Source: a virus. Taken from it: a stretch of DNA of 31,708 bases. Shown here piece after piece: positions 2,319 to 24,682 of this stretch (position 1 is the stretch's first letter; each line of letters starts with the position of its first letter). Where the stretch lies: the IMG/VR virus record IMGVR_UViG_3300030406_004314, positions 1 to 31,708 of that record; one strand, written 5' to 3'. The notes under the pieces are model-generated. The model was not told the DNA's origin, searched no databases, and worked only from the letters and a program-made list of their open reading frames with translations. A program made the position numbers and the translations under genes.

Positions 2319-4454
2319 ATGGCTATAAAAATAAAATCGCAGTCGAAGGACTTGAGCCGACCGCTGAGCGGCGATGTCAGGCGCGAGTTTGTGGACTGGT
2401 TGGCGGGCCATGGTGTCGAGCCAGATAGGCGCAAGGGTCTGGTCGAGAATGAGATTGGACGCGGCACACTGCTGGTGGACAACCGACGCAAGAATCTCGT
2501 GTGGTATATGTGTTGGTTCGATCAAGAGAAGCCCTTCGGATTCTTCGAGCGCTACGACACAAAGGAGCGGGTAGAGTGGCGCACGGAAAACTCAGGCACA
2601 CACAAACTCACCGCTCAGCAGCAAAAAGAGATCGAGCAGGCAAGAGAGCAGGTGCGCATTGCACAGGAGATCGAGCACTCGAAAGCCAGCAAGAAAGCGC
2701 AGACCATGTGGGACGAAGCGAAGCCCTGTGACCTGCACCCCTATCTCGAAACGAAGAAAGTGCAGAGTTATGGTCTAAAGCAATACAACGACGCGCTGAT
2801 GATCCCAGCGTATAACCGCGATTTTGCGGTGCAGACCTTACAGTTCATCTATCCTGATGGGACGAAACGATTTCTCAGGGGCGGCAAGAAGAAAGGTGGC
2901 TTCTTTTGTATTGGTATTGAACACCTCGACACGGCGCACATTATCAATTATGCAGAGGGATACGCGACTGCCGCGAGCTATCACGAGCACAGGAAGGAGC
3001 CAGTGATAGTGTCATTCGATGCGGGCAACCTGCCACCCGTCGCAGACGTCATCTTTTCGTTGTACCCGCAGGCTAAGCACGTCTTCATCGCGGATTTCGA
3101 TGAGAGCAAAACTGGTGAGCGCTATGCGGTCGAAGCGGCGCAGTTGATACGCTCGCAGAGCGGGCAGGCAGATGTCTTGATGCCCACGGAGGTGGGGGAT
3201 TACAACGATCACGCGCAAGCGTTGGAAGGCGAACTAATGCCTAACCTGCAAGAAGTGAACGTGCCGCAGGCGTTCGAGTTCGAGAGAACGGAACGCGGGA
3301 GGGTGCTGCAAACCAAAGAAAATCACCGAGGCGTGCTGATCGTCAATAACATCGACGTGGCTTATGACGTCATCAAGAAGCGCATGAATATCAACATCCC
3401 CAACCTCGACCTGATCAGCGATTTAGAAGAGGATGCCGCCGTGACCGAGATCGAAGATCGAGCGATACAGCTCGGCGTACCGCATGACCGAGTGCGGTTT
3501 AATCTCAAGCTGCTGGCCCGCGAATCCAACCCTGTTGCTGAGTGGATTACGAGCAAGGTATGGGATGGGCAGAGCCGATTGCAGGCGCTTCTCGACACCG
3601 TAAGCGCAGAGGACGATGCGCTCAAAGAAATCCTCATGCGCAAGTGGCTGATCAGTTGTGTAGCTGCGGCGTGTGGGCCCGAGGGTGTATCGAGCGAGGG
3701 CATACTGGTGTTCGTGGGCAGGCAGGCAATCGGCAAGACGCAGTGGATGAAGCGGCTGGCCCCGCAGGCTGACTGGCTGCTCGAAGGCGCCACGCTGAAT
3801 CCGAGCGACAAGGACAGCGTGAAGCAGTGCGTTTCTCACTGGATTTGCGAGCTTGGCGAGCTGGGCAGTACGTTCAAGAAGGCAGACCTCGATCAGCTCA
3901 AGGCATTCATCACGAAGAGCCACGACGAGTTACGCCTGCCCTACGACCGTGGCTTCAGCCGATACCGCAGGCGCACTTGCTTCTACGGGTCGGTGAACGA
4001 GAACGAGTTTCTATCCGACAGCACGGGCAACCGACGCTTCTGGGTCGTGCGCGTCAGCGCAATCAACTGGCGGCACGGCATCGATATGCAGCAGGTTTGG
4101 GCGGAGATCAAGGAGCGATATTATGACGTCGGAGACGGCTGGTTCCTCACTAGCGAGGAGCGCGAGCTGCTGAACGAAAGCAATGAGATGAGCAGGACAC
4201 AGAGCGCGGTCGAAGACCTCATCCTCCAGCACGTCAGGTTCCAGTCCCAACAAACAAAGCCAGTGCAGATGACCGAGCTACTGCGGGACTTCGGGATCAA
4301 GTCGCCACGCGCCGCTGACTTCAAGGAGGCTTCGCGGGTGCTGCAGGCAAATGGCATCACGCCGCGCAGATCGAACGGGCGCAAGATATATGATCTTGAC
4401 TGGGATCGCATCGAAGATGGCGGCGGTTACAACGCGCCCAACTGGAACGACTGA
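2319..4454 (+). CDS. Primase/helicase: TOPRIM-type N-terminus plus VirE-type AAA+ ATPase
   Basis: A 711-residue replication protein. Residues about 130-300 resemble the TraC/TOPRIM primase region: WDEAKPCDLHPYLETKKVQS, then FIYPDGTKRFLRGGKKKG, YAEGYATAASYHE and VIVSFDAGNL/HVFIADFDE, the last two supplying the acidic residues expected of TOPRIM. Residues about 410-640 match virulence-associated E (VirE) ATPases: a Walker A GRQAIGKT at 467-474, a Walker B-like WICELGELG at 508-516, then FYGSVNENEFL and TGNRRFWVV. The C-terminal 90 residues look like a winged-helix tail. Such fused proteins prime and unwind phage DNA. A GGGAG lies seven bases before the ATG at 2319. It is followed directly by a repeat array (4455-4752) that may be its origin. 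Confidence 0.85.
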   Translation: MAIKIKSQSKDLSRPLSGDVRREFVDWLAGHGVEPDRRKGLVENEIGRGTLLVDNRRKNLVWYMCWFDQEKPFGFFERYDTKERVEWRTENSGTHKLTAQQQKEIEQAREQVRIAQEIEHSKASKKAQTMWDEAKPCDLHPYLETKKVQSYGLKQYNDALMIPAYNRDFAVQTLQFIYPDGTKRFLRGGKKKGGFFCIGIEHLDTAHIINYAEGYATAASYHEHRKEPVIVSFDAGNLPPVADVIFSLYPQAKHVFIADFDESKTGERYAVEAAQLIRSQSGQADVLMPTEVGDYNDHAQALEGELMPNLQEVNVPQAFEFERTERGRVLQTKENHRGVLIVNNIDVAYDVIKKRMNINIPNLDLISDLEEDAAVTEIEDRAIQLGVPHDRVRFNLKLLARESNPVAEWITSKVWDGQSRLQALLDTVSAEDDALKEILMRKWLISCVAAACGPEGVSSEGILVFVGRQAIGKTQWMKRLAPQADWLLEGATLNPSDKDSVKQCVSHWICELGELGSTFKKADLDQLKAFITKSHDELRLPYDRGFSRYRRRTCFYGSVNENEFLSDSTGNRRFWVVRVSAINWRHGIDMQQVWAEIKERYYDVGDGWFLTSEERELLNESNEMSRTQSAVEDLILQHVRFQSQQTKPVQMTELLRDFGIKSPRAADFKEASRVLQANGITPRRSNGRKIYDLDWDRIEDGGGYNAPNWND

Positions 4455-4752
4455 CAGGGTACGACACAGGGTACAGGGTACGGTTTGGGGCGAAATGTGA
4501 TGATTTGTAAACTGTATACACTTTACAATTGTAAACGTGGCGAGCTTACAAATTCGGGTGTTTTCGGTGAGGGTAGTACACTGTACCCTGCATCGAAGAT
4601 GGGTAAGGTGTTGATTTGCAGAGGTAATAAGTTAGGGTAGTGTAGTGTACTACAGAGTATATATTGATAGTTTTATGTTTATAAAATGGTGATTTGTAAA
4701 GGTGTAACCAGCTACTGTATGGGAAGCCTACCCTACACTACCCTGTACCCTG
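4455..4752. repeat. Intergenic repeat array: CAGGGTAC copies, inverted repeats and AT-rich core (candidate origin or operator)
   Basis: The 8-mer CAGGGTAC occurs three times head-to-tail (4455-4462, 4467-4474, 4474-4481) and twice inverted as GTACCCTG (4583-4590, 4745-4752). A 12-base inverted repeat, AGGGTAGTGTAG at 4634-4645, pairs with CTACACTACCCT at 4733-4744. A local palindrome GTACACTGTAC lies at 4575-4585. GATTTGTAAA occurs twice (around 4501-4510 and at 4691-4700), with a variant near 4613. The interval about 4655-4700 is strongly AT-rich. Iteron-like sites around an AT-rich core, directly behind a primase/helicase gene, are what a phage replication origin would look like. A regulatory array controlling the terminase small subunit gene is the alternative. 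Confidence 0.55.
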
Positions 4753-4764
4753 TTGGATTTTGAG

Positions 4765-5295
4765 ATGAGCGAAGAGCCGAAACGCAAACGCGGGCGTCCG
4801 CGTAAAAGCAAACCGGAGCTGGTCAAGACGCCGATGAAGTTCGAGGCTGATCCTGAGCTGGAGCTGACAGAGATGCAGGCAGCTTTCGTGTGGTATTACA
4901 CCGAGGGCGCGTGCGGTCAGACTGAGGCAGCTCGACGTGCTGGCTTCAACTTCCCCGGTTCTTCTGCGAGCAGACTACTGGATGGCGAGACGCATCCGAA
5001 TGTGGTGAAAGCGATCCGCATGAAGCAGGAGGAGCTGCGAGCCAAGTACGCGATCACACCGGAGAAGACTGGATCGATGTTGTGGAAAATCGCGGAGACA
5101 AGTTTCGAGGGGGGAAACTACAACGCGGCAGTGAGCGCAGTGAAAGAGTTGAACCAACTCGCTGGCCTGACGATACAGCGCAGTCAGAATCTCAACATCA
5201 ACGCGAACGTGGACAAGATGAGCAAAGAAGATATCAAGGCGAGACTGAACGAGCTGCTAGGCATGGAGGCTGGTTTCGACAGCAAAGATCACTGA
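4765..5295 (+). CDS. terS: Terminase small subunit
   Basis: A 176-residue protein of the Terminase_2 type, which recognises phage DNA and loads the packaging motor. It opens with a basic AT-hook-like segment (KRKRGRPRKSK), followed by LTEMQAAFVWYYTEGACGQT, then EAARRAGF and SRLLDGETHPNVVKAI, the helix-turn-helix region of this family. ITPEKTGSMLWKIAETS and AVSAVKELNQLAGL then form the oligomerisation helices. ATG 4765 is chosen. A TTG at 4753 in the same frame would add four residues, and neither has a convincing ribosome site. Its usual partner TerL is 18 kb downstream at 23198, an uncommon separation. Confidence 0.88.
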   Translation: MSEEPKRKRGRPRKSKPELVKTPMKFEADPELELTEMQAAFVWYYTEGACGQTEAARRAGFNFPGSSASRLLDGETHPNVVKAIRMKQEELRAKYAITPEKTGSMLWKIAETSFEGGNYNAAVSAVKELNQLAGLTIQRSQNLNINANVDKMSKEDIKARLNELLGMEAGFDSKDH

Positions 5296-5805: not shown

Positions 5806-6210
5806 ATGGTGGACAGCAGAAACAAGGGCGCGGCTTTCGAGAGAGACATTGTAAAACGTCTCAATGTTTTTTTTGAGGAAAACGATCTCGAAGTGCGTTG
5901 CAAAAGGAATCTTGACCAGTATCAGGCGAGAGACCTCTGCGATATCGAAATACCGGACTACGCCATCGAGTGCAAAGCGTACAAAGATGGCTGGTGGTTC
6001 TCGAAGAACTGGTGGGAACAGGTCTGCGATGCGGCAGGCGACAGAACTCCCGTTCTCATCTGGAAGTTTAACAACAAGCCGATTCGCGTTACTCTACCGA
6101 TCAGCGCCCTTAACCATGGTTTGGAGTGTGAAGGCGTGGCTGTCATTTCATTCGAGGATTGGCTGGCGTTCCTTCGCGAAGGCTGGGTTGAGGATCAGAG
6201 GGTCGCATGA
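5806..6210 (+). CDS. PD-(D/E)XK nuclease, Holliday-junction-resolvase-like
   Basis: A 134-residue protein that is probably a metal-dependent endonuclease cutting branched phage DNA during recombination or before packaging. NKGAAFERDIVKRLN supplies the N-terminal helix with E12. RDLCDIEIPDYAIECKAYKD supplies the core: D46 at the end of a strand, then E55-C56-K57 as the (D/E)xK pair. WWEQV with Q72 sits where Hjc-like enzymes have a conserved helix residue. Length is typical of archaeal-type Hjc and phage resolvases. There is no clear Shine-Dalgarno before ATG 5806. The stop overlaps the next start as ATGA, so the polyvalent gene is probably translated from the same message. A related very short patch or restriction-type nuclease is possible. 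Confidence 0.7.
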   Translation: MVDSRNKGAAFERDIVKRLNVFFEENDLEVRCKRNLDQYQARDLCDIEIPDYAIECKAYKDGWWFSKNWWEQVCDAAGDRTPVLIWKFNNKPIRVTLPISALNHGLECEGVAVISFEDWLAFLREGWVEDQRVA

Positions 6211-8600
6211 GTAGATTCGGCATAATGCGGCCCGGTCGTAATCCAACCGTCAATCGCTACGCGGGAGAAGAGCAGCCGCTTGGCAGTCCAGCGCAGACGG
6301 CAAACATTGCGGGTGCTTTTGCGGATCCGCTTGGCCTGATTGACATCTTCGGTCAATACCCAGCTTTTCCAGAAGAGGGCATGACAGTCGCGGAAATGGC
6401 GGCGGGCCCGCGATCCCCAAGCTTGGCGCAGAACATTGCAGACAAGGAATATCTGACGGCTATTATCCAGTTGGCGGGGGCAATACCTGCCATGGCGCCC
6501 GTGAGCAAGGCCGCTCGACAGGCGCTGCGTGCATATCATGGGACTCCGCATAGGTTCCCTGCCGCTCAAAGAATCCGCAACAAAGTGTCAGGCGAAACTT
6601 TTGTCGCTGAATTGGACAATCCGGTACATCGATCCATTTTAGAAGGCAAGTTCGGCGACAACTATGAGCTTGTCGGAGAGCCTAGCGATCTTGGCTTGTT
6701 TGACATGAACCGGATTGGCCAAGGCGAGGGTGCCCAAGCATTTGGTCGCGGTCTTTATTTCTCTGGCTCCGAAAATATCGCGAAAGACTATCGAGAAGAT
6801 CTCACAGGAATTACTCAAAGAATGCTCGACAATCTTCCCAATATGGAGATTGGCAAGCAGGCGGGATCAGGCAGATACGCTCTTTACGACAAAGAGACCG
6901 GATTCCTCGATACAGATTATCCTTCATTTGCGACAGAAAAAGAGGCTCAGGAGTATATCGACAACCCGCCAACGGGGGCCCTCTACTCCGTCGATCTGGA
7001 CGTTGATGAGTCAATGCTTCTGGATTACGACGCACCTCTAATCGATCAGTATTTCAAGGTAACCGATGCGGTTTTCGAAACGCCGTTTGTGAAAAAGCTC
7101 GTGAAAGCCATGGAAGAGCGAGGCGGATATGTTGACATGGCAGGCGACGTTCTCGATAACAGAGGCGTTGATGTTCCAGAAGGGGCAGATATTTATGAGC
7201 TTCTGGAAAATTCTACTTTCGAAGACATCGAAAATTTCGCCAGTAACTTCCCAGACGAATTAGGGGGTCCAGAGCAACGCGCCAGAGATCTAGCCAAACA
7301 ACTGAAAGAAGCAGGAGTGCCCGGCATTTCTTACGAGGCGGGTCGCCATAGTGGGTTTATCGGAGACGATGCCGACAAAGTAAAAAATTATGTGATCTTC
7401 GATGACGAGCTGATTAAGATCGTAGATCGGAAACGGGAGGGCGGACCAGTCATGGACCCCACGATTGACATCTTCGAGCCAGAAGAGCCCATGAATCGTC
7501 GCGAACGTGCTCAGGCACAGCGGGAAATGCTGGCCCGCGCCAACGATCCCATCTTGACACCAGCGCAGGCGGCTAACGTCGGCGGAGGATTTGCGCCCGC
7601 TGCTGGCCTTGCGGATGTGCTCGGCTTGTATCCTGCGTTTCCTGATGCAGACATGACGGTTGAGGAGATGGCTATGGGCCCGCGCTCGCCGAGCCTTATG
7701 CAGAACGTCATGGAAGGCAACCTTCTGGATTCAGCTCTGCAACTGGCGGGTGTTTTGCCTGTTATTGGGGGCGTCGCGAAAAGCGCCCGAGTGGCCCGTG
7801 GAATCCGGTCGCTGCCTATTGATGAGCAGATTCAGACCGTTGCCCGCGCAAAAGAAGGGGTCCACGGCGGAGAGTCAGTATTTGCTCCTGATCTGTTCAA
7901 GCAGACCGGCACTCAGGATGTAAGGCGAGCAGAGGAGGCGTTGAAGAGCAACCAGTCGGATTTGCAAACCATAGATCAGATGGTAGAGCGTGCCGAGTCA
8001 GTCAATACAGATTTTCAACAAAACATTGCTGACATCGCTTCAAGTAACGGCGCCAAGAAAGCAGACAAGTTCATCACGCTCCGCGACGGAAGTCCCTTTG
8101 ACGTCGAGGTGAAAACCAAAAAAAGCATAAATGAGAAAATAGAAAGAAAAGGTCTTGCGCCAAATCAGTTCACAGATGGCGTGCGCACATCTGTATACGT
8201 CGATTCTGCGGAGCAAGCCGAGAAAATTGCATCAGAGATTGGGCAAGCGTATCCGAGCATTGATCGTGGATGGCAAGTGATGCCAGAGACTGGATACTTT
8301 GATCGCAAGATGAATGTCGCAATCACGGATCCGAAAACGGGCGGCGTGATTATCGGTGAGGTTCAGATCAAGACGCCAGAGATGGCAGAGGCAGGAGTGG
8401 TGGGACACAGGTGGTACGAGATTACTCGAAAGCTGGAGGGTCGATACAACCAAGACATACCGCCGCAGAAATACAAAACTTATGTGGATGCGCGTGCTGA
8501 GCAGCAACGCATTTATGGTGGTGCTACTGAAGCAGCAGACCCGAATATCTTGGACCTGCTGCTGGAGAAGTTTAGGCTTGGGGGATTGGTGGCAAGGTAG
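6207..8600 (+). CDS. Polyvalent protein: duplicated leader, ADP-ribosyltransferase-like and RelA/SpoT-like domains
   Basis: A 797-residue multidomain protein. Residues about 32-105 and 448-525 are two copies of one leader: NIAGAFADPLGLIDIFGQYP matches NVGGGFAPAAGLADVLGLYP, and AGPRSPSLAQNI matches MGPRSPSLMQNV. After the first leader comes an ART-PolyVal-like ADP-ribosyltransferase: AYHGTPHRF (H111), GEGAQAFGRGLYF (179-185) and a closing GISYEAGRHSGF with NYVIFDDELIKI (373-408). After the second leader, residues about 635-760 resemble a RelA/SpoT nucleotide-pyrophosphokinase: KKSINEKIERKG, then TDGVRTSVYVD, MPETGYFDRKMNVAI and GEVQIKTPEMAEAG, with the Asp and Glu in the places of the metal-binding and catalytic residues. 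Polyvalent proteins of phages are often injected with DNA to act on the host; that role is inferred here. ATG 6207 overlaps the nuclease stop. Its 3' end overlaps the convergent gene by 29 bases. Confidence 0.75.
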   Translation: MSRFGIMRPGRNPTVNRYAGEEQPLGSPAQTANIAGAFADPLGLIDIFGQYPAFPEEGMTVAEMAAGPRSPSLAQNIADKEYLTAIIQLAGAIPAMAPVSKAARQALRAYHGTPHRFPAAQRIRNKVSGETFVAELDNPVHRSILEGKFGDNYELVGEPSDLGLFDMNRIGQGEGAQAFGRGLYFSGSENIAKDYREDLTGITQRMLDNLPNMEIGKQAGSGRYALYDKETGFLDTDYPSFATEKEAQEYIDNPPTGALYSVDLDVDESMLLDYDAPLIDQYFKVTDAVFETPFVKKLVKAMEERGGYVDMAGDVLDNRGVDVPEGADIYELLENSTFEDIENFASNFPDELGGPEQRARDLAKQLKEAGVPGISYEAGRHSGFIGDDADKVKNYVIFDDELIKIVDRKREGGPVMDPTIDIFEPEEPMNRRERAQAQREMLARANDPILTPAQAANVGGGFAPAAGLADVLGLYPAFPDADMTVEEMAMGPRSPSLMQNVMEGNLLDSALQLAGVLPVIGGVAKSARVARGIRSLPIDEQIQTVARAKEGVHGGESVFAPDLFKQTGTQDVRRAEEALKSNQSDLQTIDQMVERAESVNTDFQQNIADIASSNGAKKADKFITLRDGSPFDVEVKTKKSINEKIERKGLAPNQFTDGVRTSVYVDSAEQAEKIASEIGQAYPSIDRGWQVMPETGYFDRKMNVAITDPKTGGVIIGEVQIKTPEMAEAGVVGHRWYEITRKLEGRYNQDIPPQKYKTYVDARAEQQRIYGGATEAADPNILDLLLEKFRLGGLVAR

Positions 8601-9690: not shown

Positions 9691-10863
9691 TCAGTGTTTT
9701 GTCTTACCTTTTAGGTCGTAATCGTGAAGAATCGTGCCAAGTGAGGCGTCCCCAACCCACTGCTCGGCAATCCAGCGCTTAGTGACAAGCCCGTTCTTGT
9801 GGACCTTGCGGCGCCAATGTCCGCGACGATAGTGGCGTCGCTTCTTCCTGCCGCAACCCGAGAAAATCTTTTCGTACTGTGTGGTGCCTCGCGGCTTCGG
9901 AAGATCCAGCTCGACGGTGCGCAGCTCATTGCGCGGCACCGGCCTGCCCCATGCGATGCGCCGTGCTTGCGAGGATTCTGTATCGCGCTCGATAATCGTG
10001 TGCGTGTAGTTGATGAGTCCGAGCGTGGCTATCATCAGAACTGGCGCATACTTCCATGCGTCCAAAGACTGGCGTTGCGCCTCCGCTACTCGCTCAGGGT
10101 CGAAGCCTAGCGAATGCCTATTGAAAGCGTGTTTGCCAAAATACAGGTCTGGGCAAAAAACAATGTGCTCATTGAATCTCAAGTGCCAAGGGTCTCTTTT
10201 TGGCTCGCCCGTTTCATCGTCATACCAGCCATGATGAATACAATAAGGATCCCCGAAAAAAGTTAGCGCGGACAACGCGAGTTGAGAATCCCTCATGGCT
10301 TCAAGTGTCTTCTCGACCACTTCCCCTGTCTTTTCATCACGCCGAACAAGAAGGGTGTGATCTATCGGAGACTTAGGATCAAACGCGAACGAAAGAGGAT
10401 TTGCTTTTAAAAATCCATCAGGCGCCAAATGATATTGATTGATTAAATAAAAATCGAAGTTCGGCCTCTTGTTGATGTGGAAGCCAACGGTAAGATCGTT
10501 GACGCCATTCAGAACGCGCTCGTCAACGGTAGCGCCATCAGGCAAGAGGCCGATCTCATTAATCATCTGCACTTGCGTGCGAGCCAAATCAGAAGCGTTA
10601 GTCTCGATCCACATATTCTCGAAAGGCGGTATCGCCTCTGAAAACATCTCCCACAATTTTTTGGGCGGCATCATCGAAGCCGTGACGATGTGCTTGTGCA
10701 TCGAATCACGCATGATGAATTTTTGAGCGCCGAGCAAGTCACGCCTGAGCATACTCGCATCTGCCTTCAAGTATTTGTCTTGGATCTCCCTGATGTACGG
10801 ATCGTTAAAAGCACGCTTCGGCTTATGCAACCCCGCAACCAGCAGATTAAAAAGATCAGACAC
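9691..10863 (-). CDS. Large phage accessory protein with AcrVA2-like C-terminal motif
   Basis: 390 residues from a GTG at 10863 that overlaps the upstream stop; the ATG at 10980 lies far inside the upstream gene. The N-terminal half is helical (LHKPKRAFNDPYIREIQDKY, then MPPKKLWEMFSEAIPPFENM), followed by alternating strands (MWIETN; DLTVGFHINKRPNFDFYLIN). The C-terminus reads KKRRHYRRGHWRRK, then EQWVGDASLGTILHDYDLK. The RRGHWR and GDASLG..HDY pair is, from memory, common in phage proteins of alphaproteobacterial origin. The RRGHW part also occurs at the same place in AcrVA2, the anti-Cas12a protein that lowers Cas12a synthesis. A relation to AcrVA2 is inferred only from this motif and overall length. 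Neighbours (SprT-like protease, DUF7694) are also accessory genes. Confidence 0.6.
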   Translation of the reverse strand: MSDLFNLLVAGLHKPKRAFNDPYIREIQDKYLKADASMLRRDLLGAQKFIMRDSMHKHIVTASMMPPKKLWEMFSEAIPPFENMWIETNASDLARTQVQMINEIGLLPDGATVDERVLNGVNDLTVGFHINKRPNFDFYLINQYHLAPDGFLKANPLSFAFDPKSPIDHTLLVRRDEKTGEVVEKTLEAMRDSQLALSALTFFGDPYCIHHGWYDDETGEPKRDPWHLRFNEHIVFCPDLYFGKHAFNRHSLGFDPERVAEAQRQSLDAWKYAPVLMIATLGLINYTHTIIERDTESSQARRIAWGRPVPRNELRTVELDLPKPRGTTQYEKIFSGCGRKKRRHYRRGHWRRKVHKNGLVTKRWIAEQWVGDASLGTILHDYDLKGKTKH

Positions 10864-11368
10864 TAACCTCTCCCCGCTGCTCGATGGATTCGGTGTAATC
10901 GACATCCCGCATTCCGTAACCAATTGGGAGCCTGATGTCTGCGGGAAACACCCAAAGGTGGAAGACGTTCGCAGTGTCATGGAGCACGTCTTCTTGCGGA
11001 TAGATTTCTACGCCTTGCCGATGCTCGCCGCACAAATCATTCTTGATGGCTTGGAAATCTCGCCAGTCGATCAGATGGCTTTCGCCATTGTCGATTCGGA
11101 TCGATAGCCAAGTGGTGCCCTCGAACATTTCGTTGTGGCAGAGACCGTCACCCACTTTGATTTCCTGACTGACAACCTTGTAGCGGCCGCAGTCCGAATA
11201 CCACACGTCGGCGTTGCGCAAATCGTTGCACCGAGACTTAGCCTTCTCTCGCGGGAACCCCTTGCTCATCAACATCTTGATGAACGCTTTCGGCTTGAGG
11301 CCGTGCTGTTGCAGACCGTTGCACCTGCGGGTCCAGCCGCCAAAGCGGGAAGAGGGTAAAGTAGTCAT
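10856..11368 (-). CDS. DUF7694-like phage protein
   Basis: 170 residues with AAGGAGG four bases before ATG 11368, which overlaps the stop of the metalloprotease gene (ATGA). Residues 1-50 are a basic helical segment (RRCNGLQQHGLKPKAFIKML). The rest matches, from memory, DUF7694: WYSDCGRYKVVSQEI, WLSIRIDNGE, HLIDWRDFQAIKNDLCG, VEIYPQEDVLHDTANVFHLW and a final LPIGYGMRDV. Members are widespread small proteins of phages and mobile elements with no known role. The usual member lacks the N-terminal helical part, so this may be a two-domain version. Confidence 0.7.
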   Translation of the reverse strand: MTTLPSSRFGGWTRRCNGLQQHGLKPKAFIKMLMSKGFPREKAKSRCNDLRNADVWYSDCGRYKVVSQEIKVGDGLCHNEMFEGTTWLSIRIDNGESHLIDWRDFQAIKNDLCGEHRQGVEIYPQEDVLHDTANVFHLWVFPADIRLPIGYGMRDVDYTESIEQRGEVSV

Positions 11369-11919
11369 GCCGCCTCCTTGACGTCATTGTTTAGAAACAC
11401 CGGATTGACAACTCGCGCTCGAAGGATTCGATAGATGTCTTTGAACCCATCGCCGTGCGGCCTTTTGTAAGACTTCTTCAGCCATCGAGTGCAAGGGCCG
11501 TATCGATACTGAACGTGGTGCGCCACTTCGTGGGCAACAGTCGCGGCGATGACCGCCTCAACATCGTCAGTCTTGAACGCTCCGATCACGGGATCGTTTT
11601 CGAAAGCCTTGTACTCGTGGAACTTGCCGACCTTGGCTTCTCGGTGAGCCATCTTGATGTCGATGTTGATCTTGTAACAGCCACCGTTAGAAACCTGTCC
11701 GCTGCCTTTGCAGTAAACATCAATGTTGTCGATCATGTCGGCATACTTGATTGGCTTCTCGCGGCCCGCGATAAAAGCCTCACGCCAACCGTCGAAATTG
11801 TCAGCGATCTCATAGTCTTTTTTCGCCAGCTCCTTGAGACACTTCTTGACCCACTTGGCAACCAAGTTCCGCTCAGCGACGCCGACGTTCTTGGCTTTGG
11901 CGATTCGCAATTTCATCAT
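11365..11919 (-). CDS. SprT-like zinc metalloprotease
   Basis: 184 residues from ATG 11919, with AAAGGAGA four bases upstream. The zincin motif HEVAHH places zinc ligands at H130 and H134 with catalytic E131. A third ligand is supplied by H155 in HGDGFKDIYRILR, an arrangement like SprT/Wss1-type proteases that cleave proteins bound or crosslinked to DNA. The N-terminal half (ERNLVAKWVKKCLKELAKKD, then GWREAFIAGREKP and CYKINIDIKMAHRE) is typical of phage members. It is the first gene of a five-gene leftward operon, about 30 bases downstream of a predicted promoter. The substrate (host DNA-binding proteins, or DNA-protein crosslinks on phage DNA) is unknown. Confidence 0.72.
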   Translation of the reverse strand: MMKLRIAKAKNVGVAERNLVAKWVKKCLKELAKKDYEIADNFDGWREAFIAGREKPIKYADMIDNIDVYCKGSGQVSNGGCYKINIDIKMAHREAKVGKFHEYKAFENDPVIGAFKTDDVEAVIAATVAHEVAHHVQYRYGPCTRWLKKSYKRPHGDGFKDIYRILRARVVNPVFLNNDVKEAA

Positions 11920-11946
11920 TTATCTCCTTTCCCAACCAACAAACCC

Positions 11947-11975
11947 ATTCTAGCCCTTTCCGTGTCGATGTGCAA
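11947..11975 (-). promoter_or_regulatory. Predicted promoter with shared CGACACG element (copy 2)
   Basis: On the minus strand, TTGCAC (11970-11975) and TAGAAT (11947-11952) are separated by 17 bases, with CACATCGACACGG across the box and spacer. It drives the operon starting at 11919 and has the best -10 match of the two leftward copies. Confidence 0.6.
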
Positions 11976-12042
11976 CCCCTTACACAAATAAATGTAGGGT
12001 GTGCGAATGTGAATATTTCACAATTACTTTTGTAGAAAGTTG

Positions 12043-12071
12043 TAGACAACGACACGGGGATATGAGAGACT
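12043..12071 (+). promoter_or_regulatory. Predicted promoter or operator with shared CGACACG element (copy 3)
   Basis: TAGACA (12043-12048) is followed by ACGACACGG, and GAGACT falls 17 bases later at 12066-12071, a poor -10. GACAACGACACGG aligns with the other three copies. It faces right, toward the gene at 12115, and is divergent from copy 2 within a 195-base gap. Confidence 0.45.
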
Positions 12072-12114
12072 GTACTTGAAGTCGAGGGGGTCTCGACATT
12101 GACAAGGAGGCGAG

Positions 12115-12357
12115 ATGATCAAAGCGGCAAAGAAGGACGGGCCAGTTCTGAACATTGACAGACTGGTCCGTTCCGCCGCGAGAGATGAAGAGTATTGCTC
12201 TTTCATTCTCGACGGGATCGGACTGGTGGATGGCAGCGACTACAGCATCGAATGGTTCGATTGGTTTTGGGACGAAGAGGTCGCGAAGTCTGACCTCACT
12301 GTCAAAGAGTTTTGCTTGGTCTGGAAGGCCAAGCTCGCGAAAGGAGAAGCGGCATGA
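12115..12357 (+). CDS. Small acidic hypothetical protein
   Basis: 80 residues with AAGGAGG four bases before ATG 12115. The protein has an aromatic stretch (SIEWFDWFWDEEVAKS) and ends KLAKGEAA. Family not recognised. It is the first gene of a rightward run of small genes, and its stop overlaps the next start. The junction sequence (12339-12358) is repeated exactly at the end of the following gene. Confidence 0.65.
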   Translation: MIKAAKKDGPVLNIDRLVRSAARDEEYCSFILDGIGLVDGSDYSIEWFDWFWDEEVAKSDLTVKEFCLVWKAKLAKGEAA

Positions 12358-12358
12358 A
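12339..12358 (+). repeat. 20-base gene-junction repeat, copy A
   Basis: The junction holding the ribosome site GAAAGGAG, the last codons (Gly-Glu-Ala-Ala) and the overlapping stop/start is identical over 20 bases to 12515-12534. Confidence 0.8.
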
Positions 12359-12533
12359 GGTAATCGAAATCAAAAAAAATGACGGTGGTGGAGTTGACCT
12401 GCTTGTTGGCAACAACGAGTACGACAAAAAGTATATAAGCACTGGCCCGGCGGAACGCTCTGAAAAGTTTTGGATTGACCTCATTAACGAGGCCCACAAC
12501 GCTCTCGATATTCTGAAAGGAGAAGCGGCATGA
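12354..12533 (+). CDS. Small hypothetical protein
   Basis: 59 residues from ATG 12354, which overlaps the previous stop as ATGA and has AAAGGAG upstream. An ATG at 12312 in this frame is inside the preceding gene and is rejected. It starts MKVIEIKKNDGGGVDLLVGN, which looks beta-rich, and ends in a helix (FWIDLINEAHNALDILKG). Family not recognised. Confidence 0.62.
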   Translation: MKVIEIKKNDGGGVDLLVGNNEYDKKYISTGPAERSEKFWIDLINEAHNALDILKGEAA

Positions 12534-13817: not shown

Positions 13818-14050
13818 TGAACGCGGCTGAGAAGAAGGTTTTCTATAACCGCGTGCGGCGCACCTGCAAACTGCACGACATCGACATCGTGTATGAAGGT
13901 GTGCCGAAAGCCTACCGCTCGGTCTGTTTGGTCAAGGATGGCCACACGATGTTCGCAGATCGGGCAGAGGACTGGCGCCCTCTCGACATTAACTGGAAGC
14001 GACTCCACGAAGAGATGACTGACTACGGTTTTCGCGGCGGCATAAAATGA
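13817..14050 (+). CDS. Small basic hypothetical protein (CKLHDID motif)
   Basis: 77 residues from ATG 13817 in a TGATG overlap. It begins MNAAEKKVFYNRVRRTCKLH, and the CKLHDID block resembles CKLHDMD in the gene at 12760. Family not recognised. Its stop overlaps the recombinase start. Confidence 0.62.
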   Translation: MNAAEKKVFYNRVRRTCKLHDIDIVYEGVPKAYRSVCLVKDGHTMFADRAEDWRPLDINWKRLHEEMTDYGFRGGIK

Positions 14051-14847
14051 TCGTGAGGCCAGTCGGCCAGAGACACAATCGTGTGTATGGTTACATCAGG
14101 GTCAGTTTGGCAGACGTCAATTCCGAAGATCTTTCAGTCGAACGACAAAGGCGGTTAATCACCGCCTTTGCTGCATCTAAGTATGAAAAGTCCGTCGATG
14201 AGTTTTTCATCGACACTGAGTGCTTAGGGTCCACAAAAATTCTGGAGCGCGAGGCTGCTCGTGAGATGACCGATGTCATGGAGGAACATGACGTTGTGAT
14301 TACGACGCGGCTCGACAGGCTGAGTATGTCAGTGCCAGACCTGATGGAGATGATTCCGCACTTTCAGCACACTGGTGTACATTTGTACTTTTGTGAGCAG
14401 TTTGGAGATATGCCGATTGCTCACCGCGAGCCTGATCGCCAGATCGAGGGGATGGAGCATCACGTCGATCTTGATAGCCGAGTCCATGGTGTTTTTACGA
14501 TGGCGCTGCAAGCGATCAATCAATTGGCAGCAGCCGCGAAGCGCGACAAGTGTGAGCACAAAAAAATCGAGTTGGTCAGAAAGGGGTTTTGGTCAGGCGG
14601 GCCCAATATCCCGTATGGATTCAAACTCAAGCGAGTGGAGCATGAAGGCAGAATACGCCCATGGCTTGAGCCGGTGCCCGAGCAACAACGCTGGGTCCAG
14701 TTAATTTTCAAAATGCGTGAGCGAAAAATGAATTACTCCAAAATCGCTCGCGAGATAAATTCCCTTCAAAATGATCGGGTGTGGAACCCGTCGCAAGTGC
14801 GCAACGTCTTGCGTCAGCCCGAAAGGTACACTGTCCAATCCTCATAG
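14047..14847 (+). CDS. Short serine recombinase, atypical active site
   Basis: 266 residues. The N-terminal resolvase/invertase domain shows YGYIRVS with nucleophile S20, QRRLITAFAASKYEKS, and the DRL helix near residue 95. Residues about 175-260 form the 'Recombinase' DNA-binding domain (GFWSGGPNIPYGFKL, then SKIAREINSL and WNPSQVRNVL). Large serine integrases run on for 200 or more further residues with a zinc ribbon and coiled coil; these are absent here. The family's LDRLGR(D/S) motif is LDRLSMS here, so the second of two active-site arginines is replaced by Met. It could be a divergent invertase or resolvase acting on fibre or accessory DNA, or a weakened remnant. No att-like repeat was found beside it. 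ATG 14047 overlaps the previous stop. Confidence 0.78.
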   Translation: MIVRPVGQRHNRVYGYIRVSLADVNSEDLSVERQRRLITAFAASKYEKSVDEFFIDTECLGSTKILEREAAREMTDVMEEHDVVITTRLDRLSMSVPDLMEMIPHFQHTGVHLYFCEQFGDMPIAHREPDRQIEGMEHHVDLDSRVHGVFTMALQAINQLAAAAKRDKCEHKKIELVRKGFWSGGPNIPYGFKLKRVEHEGRIRPWLEPVPEQQRWVQLIFKMRERKMNYSKIAREINSLQNDRVWNPSQVRNVLRQPERYTVQSS

Positions 14848-22765: not shown

Positions 22766-23205
22766 GGATTTCCCCCCACGGCATCGCTCTTATCAAACAC
22801 TTTGAGGGGTGTGAGACAACCGCATATCAATGCTCTGCAAATGTCTGGACGATTGGGTACGGGCATACGCGGGGTGTCAGAGAAGGCGATAAAATTACCG
22901 AAGACAAAGCGGAGTATCTTCTTCTTGAAGATCTGAAACACTTCGAAGGCTTTGTGGACCGCTTGGTCGAGGTCAGCTTGAATCAAGACCAATTCGATGC
23001 GTTGGTTGCTTGGACCTTTAACTTGGGCCCAACGAATCTTGGTGAAAGCACGTTGCTCAGAAAGCTCAATCAGGGACACTACGACGAGGTGCCCAGTGAA
23101 ATGGCACGCTGGAACAGATCTGACGGCAAGGTCTTGGAGGGTCTGAAAAGGCGCCGCAAGGCAGAGGGCCTGCTCTGGCAAGGACTCGACTGGAAGGATG
23201 TCTAA
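22762..23205 (+). CDS. Phage lysozyme (GH24 endolysin) with E-C-T triad
   Basis: 147 residues. A muramidase that cleaves the glycan chain of peptidoglycan for release of progeny. FEG gives catalytic E15. Counting E-x8-C-x5-T gives C24 and T30 (VWTIGYGHT), so the usual Asp of the T4-type triad is Cys, as in the P1/phage 21 class of endolysins. FDALVAWTFNLGPTNLGEST and RWNRSDGKVLEGLKRRRKAE complete the domain. There is no signal-anchor segment at the N-terminus, so export must rely on the adjacent holins. The start overlaps the previous stop, and the end overlaps TerL. Confidence 0.9.
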   Translation: MRISPHGIALIKHFEGCETTAYQCSANVWTIGYGHTRGVREGDKITEDKAEYLLLEDLKHFEGFVDRLVEVSLNQDQFDALVAWTFNLGPTNLGESTLLRKLNQGHYDEVPSEMARWNRSDGKVLEGLKRRRKAEGLLWQGLDWKDV

Positions 23206-24682
23206 TTTAGCACTAAAAGATTTTGACATTCTTTCTGAACAAGAGAAGCAAGAGGCTCTGGCCCTGCTTCAGCGTTACGAGACAATAGAGCAGCAGGAAG
23301 ACTGCCAGAAAGACTTCATTCGCTTTGTGAAAAGCCAGTGGCCCGAGTTTGTCGAGGGGCGCCATCATCGCATAATCGGTGAAAAATTTAATCGGATCGC
23401 TCAAGGAAAGCTAAAGAGGCTTATCGTCTGCTTGCCTCCGCGTCACACTAAGTCGGAATTTGCCTCTACTTTTTTCCCAGCATGGATGATGGGTCTCAAG
23501 GGCGATCTCAAGATTATTCAGACCACCCACACTGCTGAATTGGCAGTCAGATTCGGCCGCAGAGTGCGGAATATCATCGACTCTGATGAGTATCAGACCG
23601 TCTTTCCAGAATTGAAGCTGCAAGCTGACAATAAAAGCGCAGGCCGCTGGACCACAAACAAGGGCGGCGAATCGTTCTACGCAGGTGTGGGCGGTGCAAT
23701 TACAGGTCGCGGCGCTGATCTCCTTATCATTGACGATCCGGTCTCGGAGCAAGACGCTCTGAGCCCGACCGCCATGGATTCAGTTTATGAGTGGTACACC
23801 TCTGGGCCCCGCCAGCGTCTTCAGCCGGGCGGTATTATCGTGATCGTAATGACCCGATGGAGCACCAAAGACCTCGTGGGTCGCGTCTTGAAAAAGCAAG
23901 GCGATGATTATGCAGATCAGTGGGAAATTGTGGAGTTTCCCGCCATCATGCCCGAATCCGATACGCCACTTTGGCCAGAATTTTGGAAAAAAGAGGAACT
24001 TTTGAGTGTCAAAGCCTCTTTGCCTCTGTCCAAGTGGAATGCTCAATGGATGCAAGATCCGACAGCGGAAGAGGGGTCCATTGTTAAGCGGGAATGGTGG
24101 AACAAGTGGGAGCCAGATTATGTGCCCGAATATGAATACGTCATCCAAAGCTATGACACCGCTTTTTCGAAGAAAGAAACGGCGGACTACAGCGCCATCA
24201 CAACGTGGGCGGTTTTCAAGCCTAGAGATAGCGAGCCCGACGCCATCATTTTGCTCGATGCAAAGCGTGTCAGAGCTGATTTTCCAGAACTGAAAAAGCT
24301 GGCTTGGGAGGAGTATAAATATTGGGAGCCTGACTGCGTATTGATCGAGGCAAAGGCATCTGGCACCCCGCTCACACAGGAGTTACGGCGTATAGGCATA
24401 CCGGTCACCGCCTATACACCGAGCAGGGGGCAGGATAAGATTGCCAGAATGAACTCTGTGGCCCCTATTTTCGAGTCTGGCATGGTTTGGGCTCCAGAAG
24501 AGGCATTTGCGGAAGAAGTGATTGAAGAAATGGCTGCTTTTCCGTATGGAGACCATGATGACTACTGTGACTCGGCCACAATGGCCTTGATGAGGTTCCG
24601 ACAGGGCGGTTTTCTGTCACTTGGAGACGATTATCAAGTAGAAATTCACCCTATGAGACGTGACAGAAAGGTTTATTACTGA
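23198..24682 (+). CDS. terL: Terminase large subunit
   Basis: 494 residues. It is the ATPase and nuclease of the packaging motor. Walker A is a variant without Gly, PPRHTKS at residues 80-86; Walker B is LLIIDD with D179-D180; the coupling motif is VMTRWS at 218-222. The RNase H-fold nuclease follows: SYDTAF with D320, VLIEAKASGTPL with E384, and GDHDDYCDSATMAL with D454-D458. Length is normal and no key residue is missing. ATG 23198 overlaps the lysozyme by eight bases, placing lysis immediately upstream of packaging. The small subunit is far upstream at 4765. Confidence 0.95.
   Translation: MSNLALKDFDILSEQEKQEALALLQRYETIEQQEDCQKDFIRFVKSQWPEFVEGRHHRIIGEKFNRIAQGKLKRLIVCLPPRHTKSEFASTFFPAWMMGLKGDLKIIQTTHTAELAVRFGRRVRNIIDSDEYQTVFPELKLQADNKSAGRWTTNKGGESFYAGVGGAITGRGADLLIIDDPVSEQDALSPTAMDSVYEWYTSGPRQRLQPGGIIVIVMTRWSTKDLVGRVLKKQGDDYADQWEIVEFPAIMPESDTPLWPEFWKKEELLSVKASLPLSKWNAQWMQDPTAEEGSIVKREWWNKWEPDYVPEYEYVIQSYDTAFSKKETADYSAITTWAVFKPRDSEPDAIILLDAKRVRADFPELKKLAWEEYKYWEPDCVLIEAKASGTPLTQELRRIGIPVTAYTPSRGQDKIARMNSVAPIFESGMVWAPEEAFAEEVIEEMAAFPYGDHDDYCDSATMALMRFRQGGFLSLGDDYQVEIHPMRRDRKVYY

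Follow-up and report, generated by a model that had tools for sequence, protein, structure and literature searches.

A probable PICI/P4-type replication origin behind the primase-helicase gene of an uncultured marine phage

What is the function of a gap crowded with regular repeats that lies directly behind a phage primase gene? The window, the whole stretch of DNA analysed here, comprises the 31,708 nucleotides of IMG/VR virus record IMGVR_UViG_3300030406_004314. Its genes for a large terminase, a portal, a head protein/protease, a holin and a lysozyme mark it as a piece of a tailed phage, and its long relatives measure 50 to 55 kb. The phage may be temperate, given a serine recombinase with Resolvase and Recombinase domains at 14047-14847. 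Elsewhere, a 797-aa ORF (6207-8600) downstream of a RusA-like resolvase has no Pfam or PHROG match. The original prediction for the gap was a replication origin or an operator array. From comparative sequence evidence, we consider it very likely that the gap is a replication origin of the phage, of the PICI/P4 type, read by the phage's own primase. The conserved array, an iteron type that follows the primase, a winged helix in that protein and a placement found family-wide all favor the origin half of the prediction; an operator array as the main function, leaving the second dyad motif aside, is less likely. The features are collected in Table 1.

Table 1. Features of the gap behind the primase gene and of its two flanking genes (window positions)
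Feature	Position	Strand	Description
Primase-helicase (711 aa), proposed initiator	2319..4454	+	Toprim, VapE-like AAA+ helicase and C-terminal winged helix
Winged helix (aa 630-693), candidate reader of the iterons	4206..4397	+	AlphaFold models; many winged-helix matches
Gap	4455-4752 (298 bases)		From the primase stop codon (TGA, 4452-4454) to the terS-like start (TTG 4753 or ATG 4766)
Iteron block 1	4454..4481	+	Three direct copies of ACAGGGTAC; kept in relatives
Dyad cluster 1	4504..4553	.	TTTGTAA/TTACAAA half-sites in both orientations; includes the palindrome 4505-4528
Iteron block 2	4570..4591	.	AGGGTA (+4570), AGTGTA (-4577), AGGGTA (-4584); GTACACTGTACCCTG well conserved
Iteron block 3	4634..4650	+	AGGGTAGTGTAGTGTAC; relatives have AGGGTAGGGTA or similar
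AT-rich core	4648..4707	.	77% AT; proposed melting region; kept in the alignment of relatives
Dyad 2	4679..4699	.	TTATAAA-N7-TTTGTAA; half-sites co-vary between phages
Iteron block 4	4729..4753	-	TACCCTACACTACCCTGTACCCTGT; inverted relative to block 1
Small-terminase-like gene	4753..5295	+	Pfam Terminase_2 (E 6.8e-6), PHROG 51; start TTG 4753 or ATG 4766

The boundaries originally given for the gap were right, and so was the count of exactly five copies of CAGGGTAC, three direct (4455, 4467 and 4474) and two inverted (4583 and 4745). The impression that such regularity exceeds chance also holds, in that no 8-mer reached more than three copies, both strands pooled, when the gap was shuffled 2000 times with its dinucleotides preserved. 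Overall, there are 35 repeated 8-mers, against a shuffled mean of 3.2 and a maximum of 14, and GGGTA/TACCC occurs 10 times, against a shuffled maximum of 7. All four exact copies of ACAGGGTAC in the window lie within the gap or at its edge, and no other GGGTA cluster in the window, or in any of the five longer related contigs compared, is as dense as the gap array. The AT-rich core and the local palindrome, the latter matching at 11 of 12 positions, are present as predicted. Inverted repeats are present as well, although their extent had been understated: 4466-4480 pairs with 4739-4753 at 15 of 15 positions, and 4634-4649 pairs with 4729-4744 at 15 of 16. The second pairing contains the exact 12-mer of the original prediction, with an outer span of 111 bases rather than about 90. 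Nine AGGGTA sites, or 14 if AGTGTA is counted, fall into four blocks on both sides of the AT-rich core; the outer two blocks are in opposite orientation to each other, and the first iteron (4454-4462) begins on the final base of the primase stop codon. At the DNA level, the gap matched nothing among isolated phages, and a scan of viral contigs for the exact pattern GGGTACAGGGTACNG yielded mostly single matches, about what chance provides for a 14-base pattern in a collection that large.

Related loci were retrieved both by the primase and by the small terminase (terS), and 18 primase-to-terS gaps were aligned. Loss of the repeats in close relatives had been named as grounds for abandoning the prediction; instead, the alignment shows all four blocks again, similarly spaced, and the GTACACTGTACCCTG, AGGGTAGGGTA and TACCCTACCCTGTACCCTGT blocks are kept best. 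Block order and spacing are maintained among relatives whose primases are 64 to 100% identical, and the arrangement recurs across dozens of related marine phages. At about 55% primase identity, our survey of repeat windows missed eight loci or scored them weakly (L257, L258, L262, L266, L284, L296, L304 and L308), and their arrays are sparse, displaced or undetected. Many relatives have an additional small HTH gene between the array and terS, which the window does not have; it belongs to the HTH_23 or HTH_28 family in L028, L032, L034, L040 and L046, and different small genes occupy this place in other relatives. On the other side, 0.8 to 2 kb of other genes separate the primase from the array in L027, L265, L287, L289 and L291, with the array still 300 to 570 b upstream of terS. 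In L027, a 285-aa ORF (3501-4358) lies in this interval, and in L135 (~10050-12446) no primase gene occurs within some 2 kb of the array. With genes inserted on the primase side or on the terS side, neither neighbor of the array is strictly fixed. The other check that had been suggested, a change of cumulative GC skew at the gap, gave no turn; the curve is monotonic, and because skew follows the coding strand in these genomes, this test does not discriminate.

The protein encoded upstream is the proposed initiator. Pfam detects a VapE-like domain (VapE-like_dom, E 2.6e-54) and Toprim_3 (E 2.4e-6), PHROG assigns the product as DNA primase, and both profile comparison (E 3.9e-29) and Foldseek, as its best match (E 7e-19), lead to PDB 7pds, the SaPI initiator PriRep1. 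The Toprim residues E213, D259 and D261 and the Walker A residues G472, K473 and T474 are invariant in 28 relatives. PDB profile matches to ribosomal S13 (E ~0.8) were dismissed. For the winged helix, the top match was the C-terminal domain of AsfvPrimPol, the African swine fever virus primase-polymerase, with a middling Z of 7.1 that is evidence of fold only. We imagine that this winged helix would bind the iterons from both sides and that the AAA+ domains would assemble there as rings; the loaded helicase would then open the AT-rich core, and priming would start with the Toprim domain, in line with what has been proposed for P4 alpha and the SaPI/PICI Pri-Rep proteins. The interleaved TTTGTAA dyads are probably bound by a second factor. 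If this is correct, a group of marine phages that has not been cultured gains an origin that can be tested.

The closest known systems are the Pri-Rep-ori modules of PICIs and SaPIs, the alpha protein of phage P4 with its origin repeats, and plasmid pRN1. In PICIs, two sets of iterons flank an AT-rich region in an origin immediately 3′ of the rep initiator gene, a layout stated in 2018 to be common to no other known replicon (PMC6092414), and SaPI Rep binds this type of origin via its C-terminal domain (PMC7581432). The window has the same layout, its array following the primase-rep gene immediately on the 3′ side and its iteron sets flanking the AT-rich region, and it shares with the Pri-Rep-ori modules of PICIs and SaPIs (SaPI Rep; E. 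coli EcCICFT073) a VapE/Rep-type AAA+ helicase, PriRep1 (7pds) being its best match. It differs in that its primase is of the Toprim (DnaG) type, whereas those of SaPIbov1 and SaPI5 are AEP primases (PMC7581432), and in the second dyad family interleaved with the iterons. P4 alpha, which binds origin repeats via a winged helix and is described as having a hexameric helicase (PMC4234260), resembles the window protein in uniting a Toprim-type primase, a helicase and a winged helix at the C-terminus; the two systems differ in the family of the helicase, in the sequence of the repeats and in their genomic setting. In pRN1, the putative origin is likewise 3′ of the rep gene (PMC4234260), and ORF904 has the same primase-helicase-winged helix order, but its primase is of archaeal type and a structured stem-loop stands where the window has iterons. 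Satellites do not have a full structural gene set; unlike PICIs and SaPIs, the window carries its own large terminase, portal, major head (capsid), holin and lysozyme genes, and thus it has a probable PICI-like origin without being a PICI. Judged by sequence, the arrangement combines the layout of a PICI with a Toprim primase like that of P4, here in a full phage. We found no earlier report of the array in these phages in the open-access literature. The layout itself is familiar from phage satellites.

That leaves the question of which protein reads the repeats. Among 58 phages, the main iteron type is AGGGTA in 44 and GGGGTA in 14, and in these 14 the change runs through the whole array. On a FastTree phylogeny of 54 primases, the switch is a single change (support 0.98). 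The terS tree requires three such changes and rejects a single GGGGTA clade (p-AU 0.0011). L077 and L066, which look like natural recombinants, provide a direct comparison: their terS proteins are 93% identical and their primases 48% identical, and their iterons are AGGGTA and GGGGTA, respectively. This pair and the terS tree argue against terS as the iteron reader. The pattern fits an iteron type inherited with the primase lineage, not with terS, and the primase as the reader, although linkage may account for some of the co-inheritance, since the array usually adjoins the primase. Within the winged helix, residues 656, 668 and 686 (R, F and N in the window) separate AGGGTA from GGGGTA phages without exception; 668 belongs to the predicted recognition helix, and 686 lies in the wing. 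The winged helix holds no concentration of such columns, just these 3 of the 56 that differ strictly, so that the three residues are candidates, not proof. Coordinated changes of iterons and winged helix are natural material for work on a recognition code.

These data bear most directly on a packaging start site (pac or cosB), in which the repeats would be bound by the small terminase encoded just downstream. The next gene is indeed Terminase_2-like, and where genes have been inserted, the array tends to remain near terS. Nevertheless, we regard this explanation as improbable. The recognition sites of a packaging site would be expected to change with terS, and here terS proteins that are 93% identical face different iterons. 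In distant family members, an array is kept and no such terS was found in its vicinity, and in the isolated phage ECO1230-10 the array precedes a late activator, with the annotated terS/terL more than 2 kb further on. The large terminase gene of the window (23198-24682) is about 18 kb away from the small-terminase-like gene, which may act as no terminase at all. The ends of the long related contigs, which possibly are not true genome ends, do not fall at the array, and a crude 20-mer check found no terminal repeats at these ends.

We also examined 73 loci in bacterial genomes with distant VapE-like relatives of 27 to 42% identity; with flanks as short as those available, some of these loci may be satellites rather than prophages. 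Scored as repeat-rich at 15 or more repeated 8-mers in a window at the 3′ end of the gene, 68% of these loci qualified, whereas among 371 control gene ends the figure was 5% (Mann-Whitney p 5e-29); in a comparison with other intergenic gaps of at least 120 bases, with shuffled backgrounds, z exceeded 4 in 70% versus 14% (p 5e-10), both p-values being rough because the loci are not all independent. The repeat sequence varies from element to element, and the placement spans many bacterial groups with varied downstream genes. A simple rule follows: an element's own iterons should be sought directly behind its VapE-like primase-helicase gene.

Isolated phages have such arrays as well. In Marinobacter phage PS3 (L224, MF959999), seven GGGTGACC sites in both orientations (4954-5187) occupy a 265-base gap directly behind the VapE-like primase, and a Q-like antiterminator, not terS, comes next. 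The array is about 0.25 kb beyond the primase in Alexa and about 2 kb beyond it in ECO1230-10 and Persinger; directly behind the primases of FoX1, Mano, ep3 and ctype202, no obvious iteron array was seen. With the PICI-type layout in full phages, isolated ones included, a single origin module appears to serve satellites and phages alike. Pseudomonas phage PPpW-3 (L223) has a 300-base stretch, from 6201, with 153 repeated 8-mers.

The same isolated phages provide an argument for an operator or promoter array that would serve the downstream operon at the early-to-late boundary, without origin function: in PS3, Alexa, ECO1230-10 and Persinger, the gene after the array encodes a late activator or a Q-like antiterminator, and the second dyad motif resembles a repressor or activator site. 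We still find this reading highly unlikely. A scan of the region for sigma-70 promoters and terminators stayed near chance level, the sole promoter-like match being weak and on the minus strand, and an operator would leave unexplained both why the iteron type tracks the primase rather than the downstream genes and why arrays sit behind VapE-like genes with varied downstream genes. A large DNA stem-loop origin, in which the inverted repeats would act by structure and not as protein sites, has a model in the 100-nt stem-loop 3′ of the rep gene that pRN1 requires (PMC4234260) and could draw on the 15-bp pairing possible between the outer blocks, but it can be given almost no weight, since direct copies within blocks are conserved and the copies change together by sequence, neither of which structure alone requires.

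Along with the proposed primase-read origin, a second layer of information may be present. The second dyad motif is placed between the iteron blocks, and within one dyad the left half co-varies with the right (58 of 70 positions versus 49.4 when shuffled; p 0.002, 10 distinct pairs), a result that is indicative only because the halves were hand-picked from related sequences. One can tentatively envision two interleaved codes, with iterons for the primase and TTTGTAA-type dyads for a second, fast-changing protein or a host factor. The dyads could then serve as a switch for replication that governs compatibility, timing or superinfection exclusion. This idea draws on their turnover among related phages, in which they alternate among TTGTAA, TTTATAA and TCTTAA types; the TTTGTAA/TTACAAA of the window is replaced in other phages, largely array-wide, by TTTATAA/TTATAAA or TCTTAA/TTAAGA.
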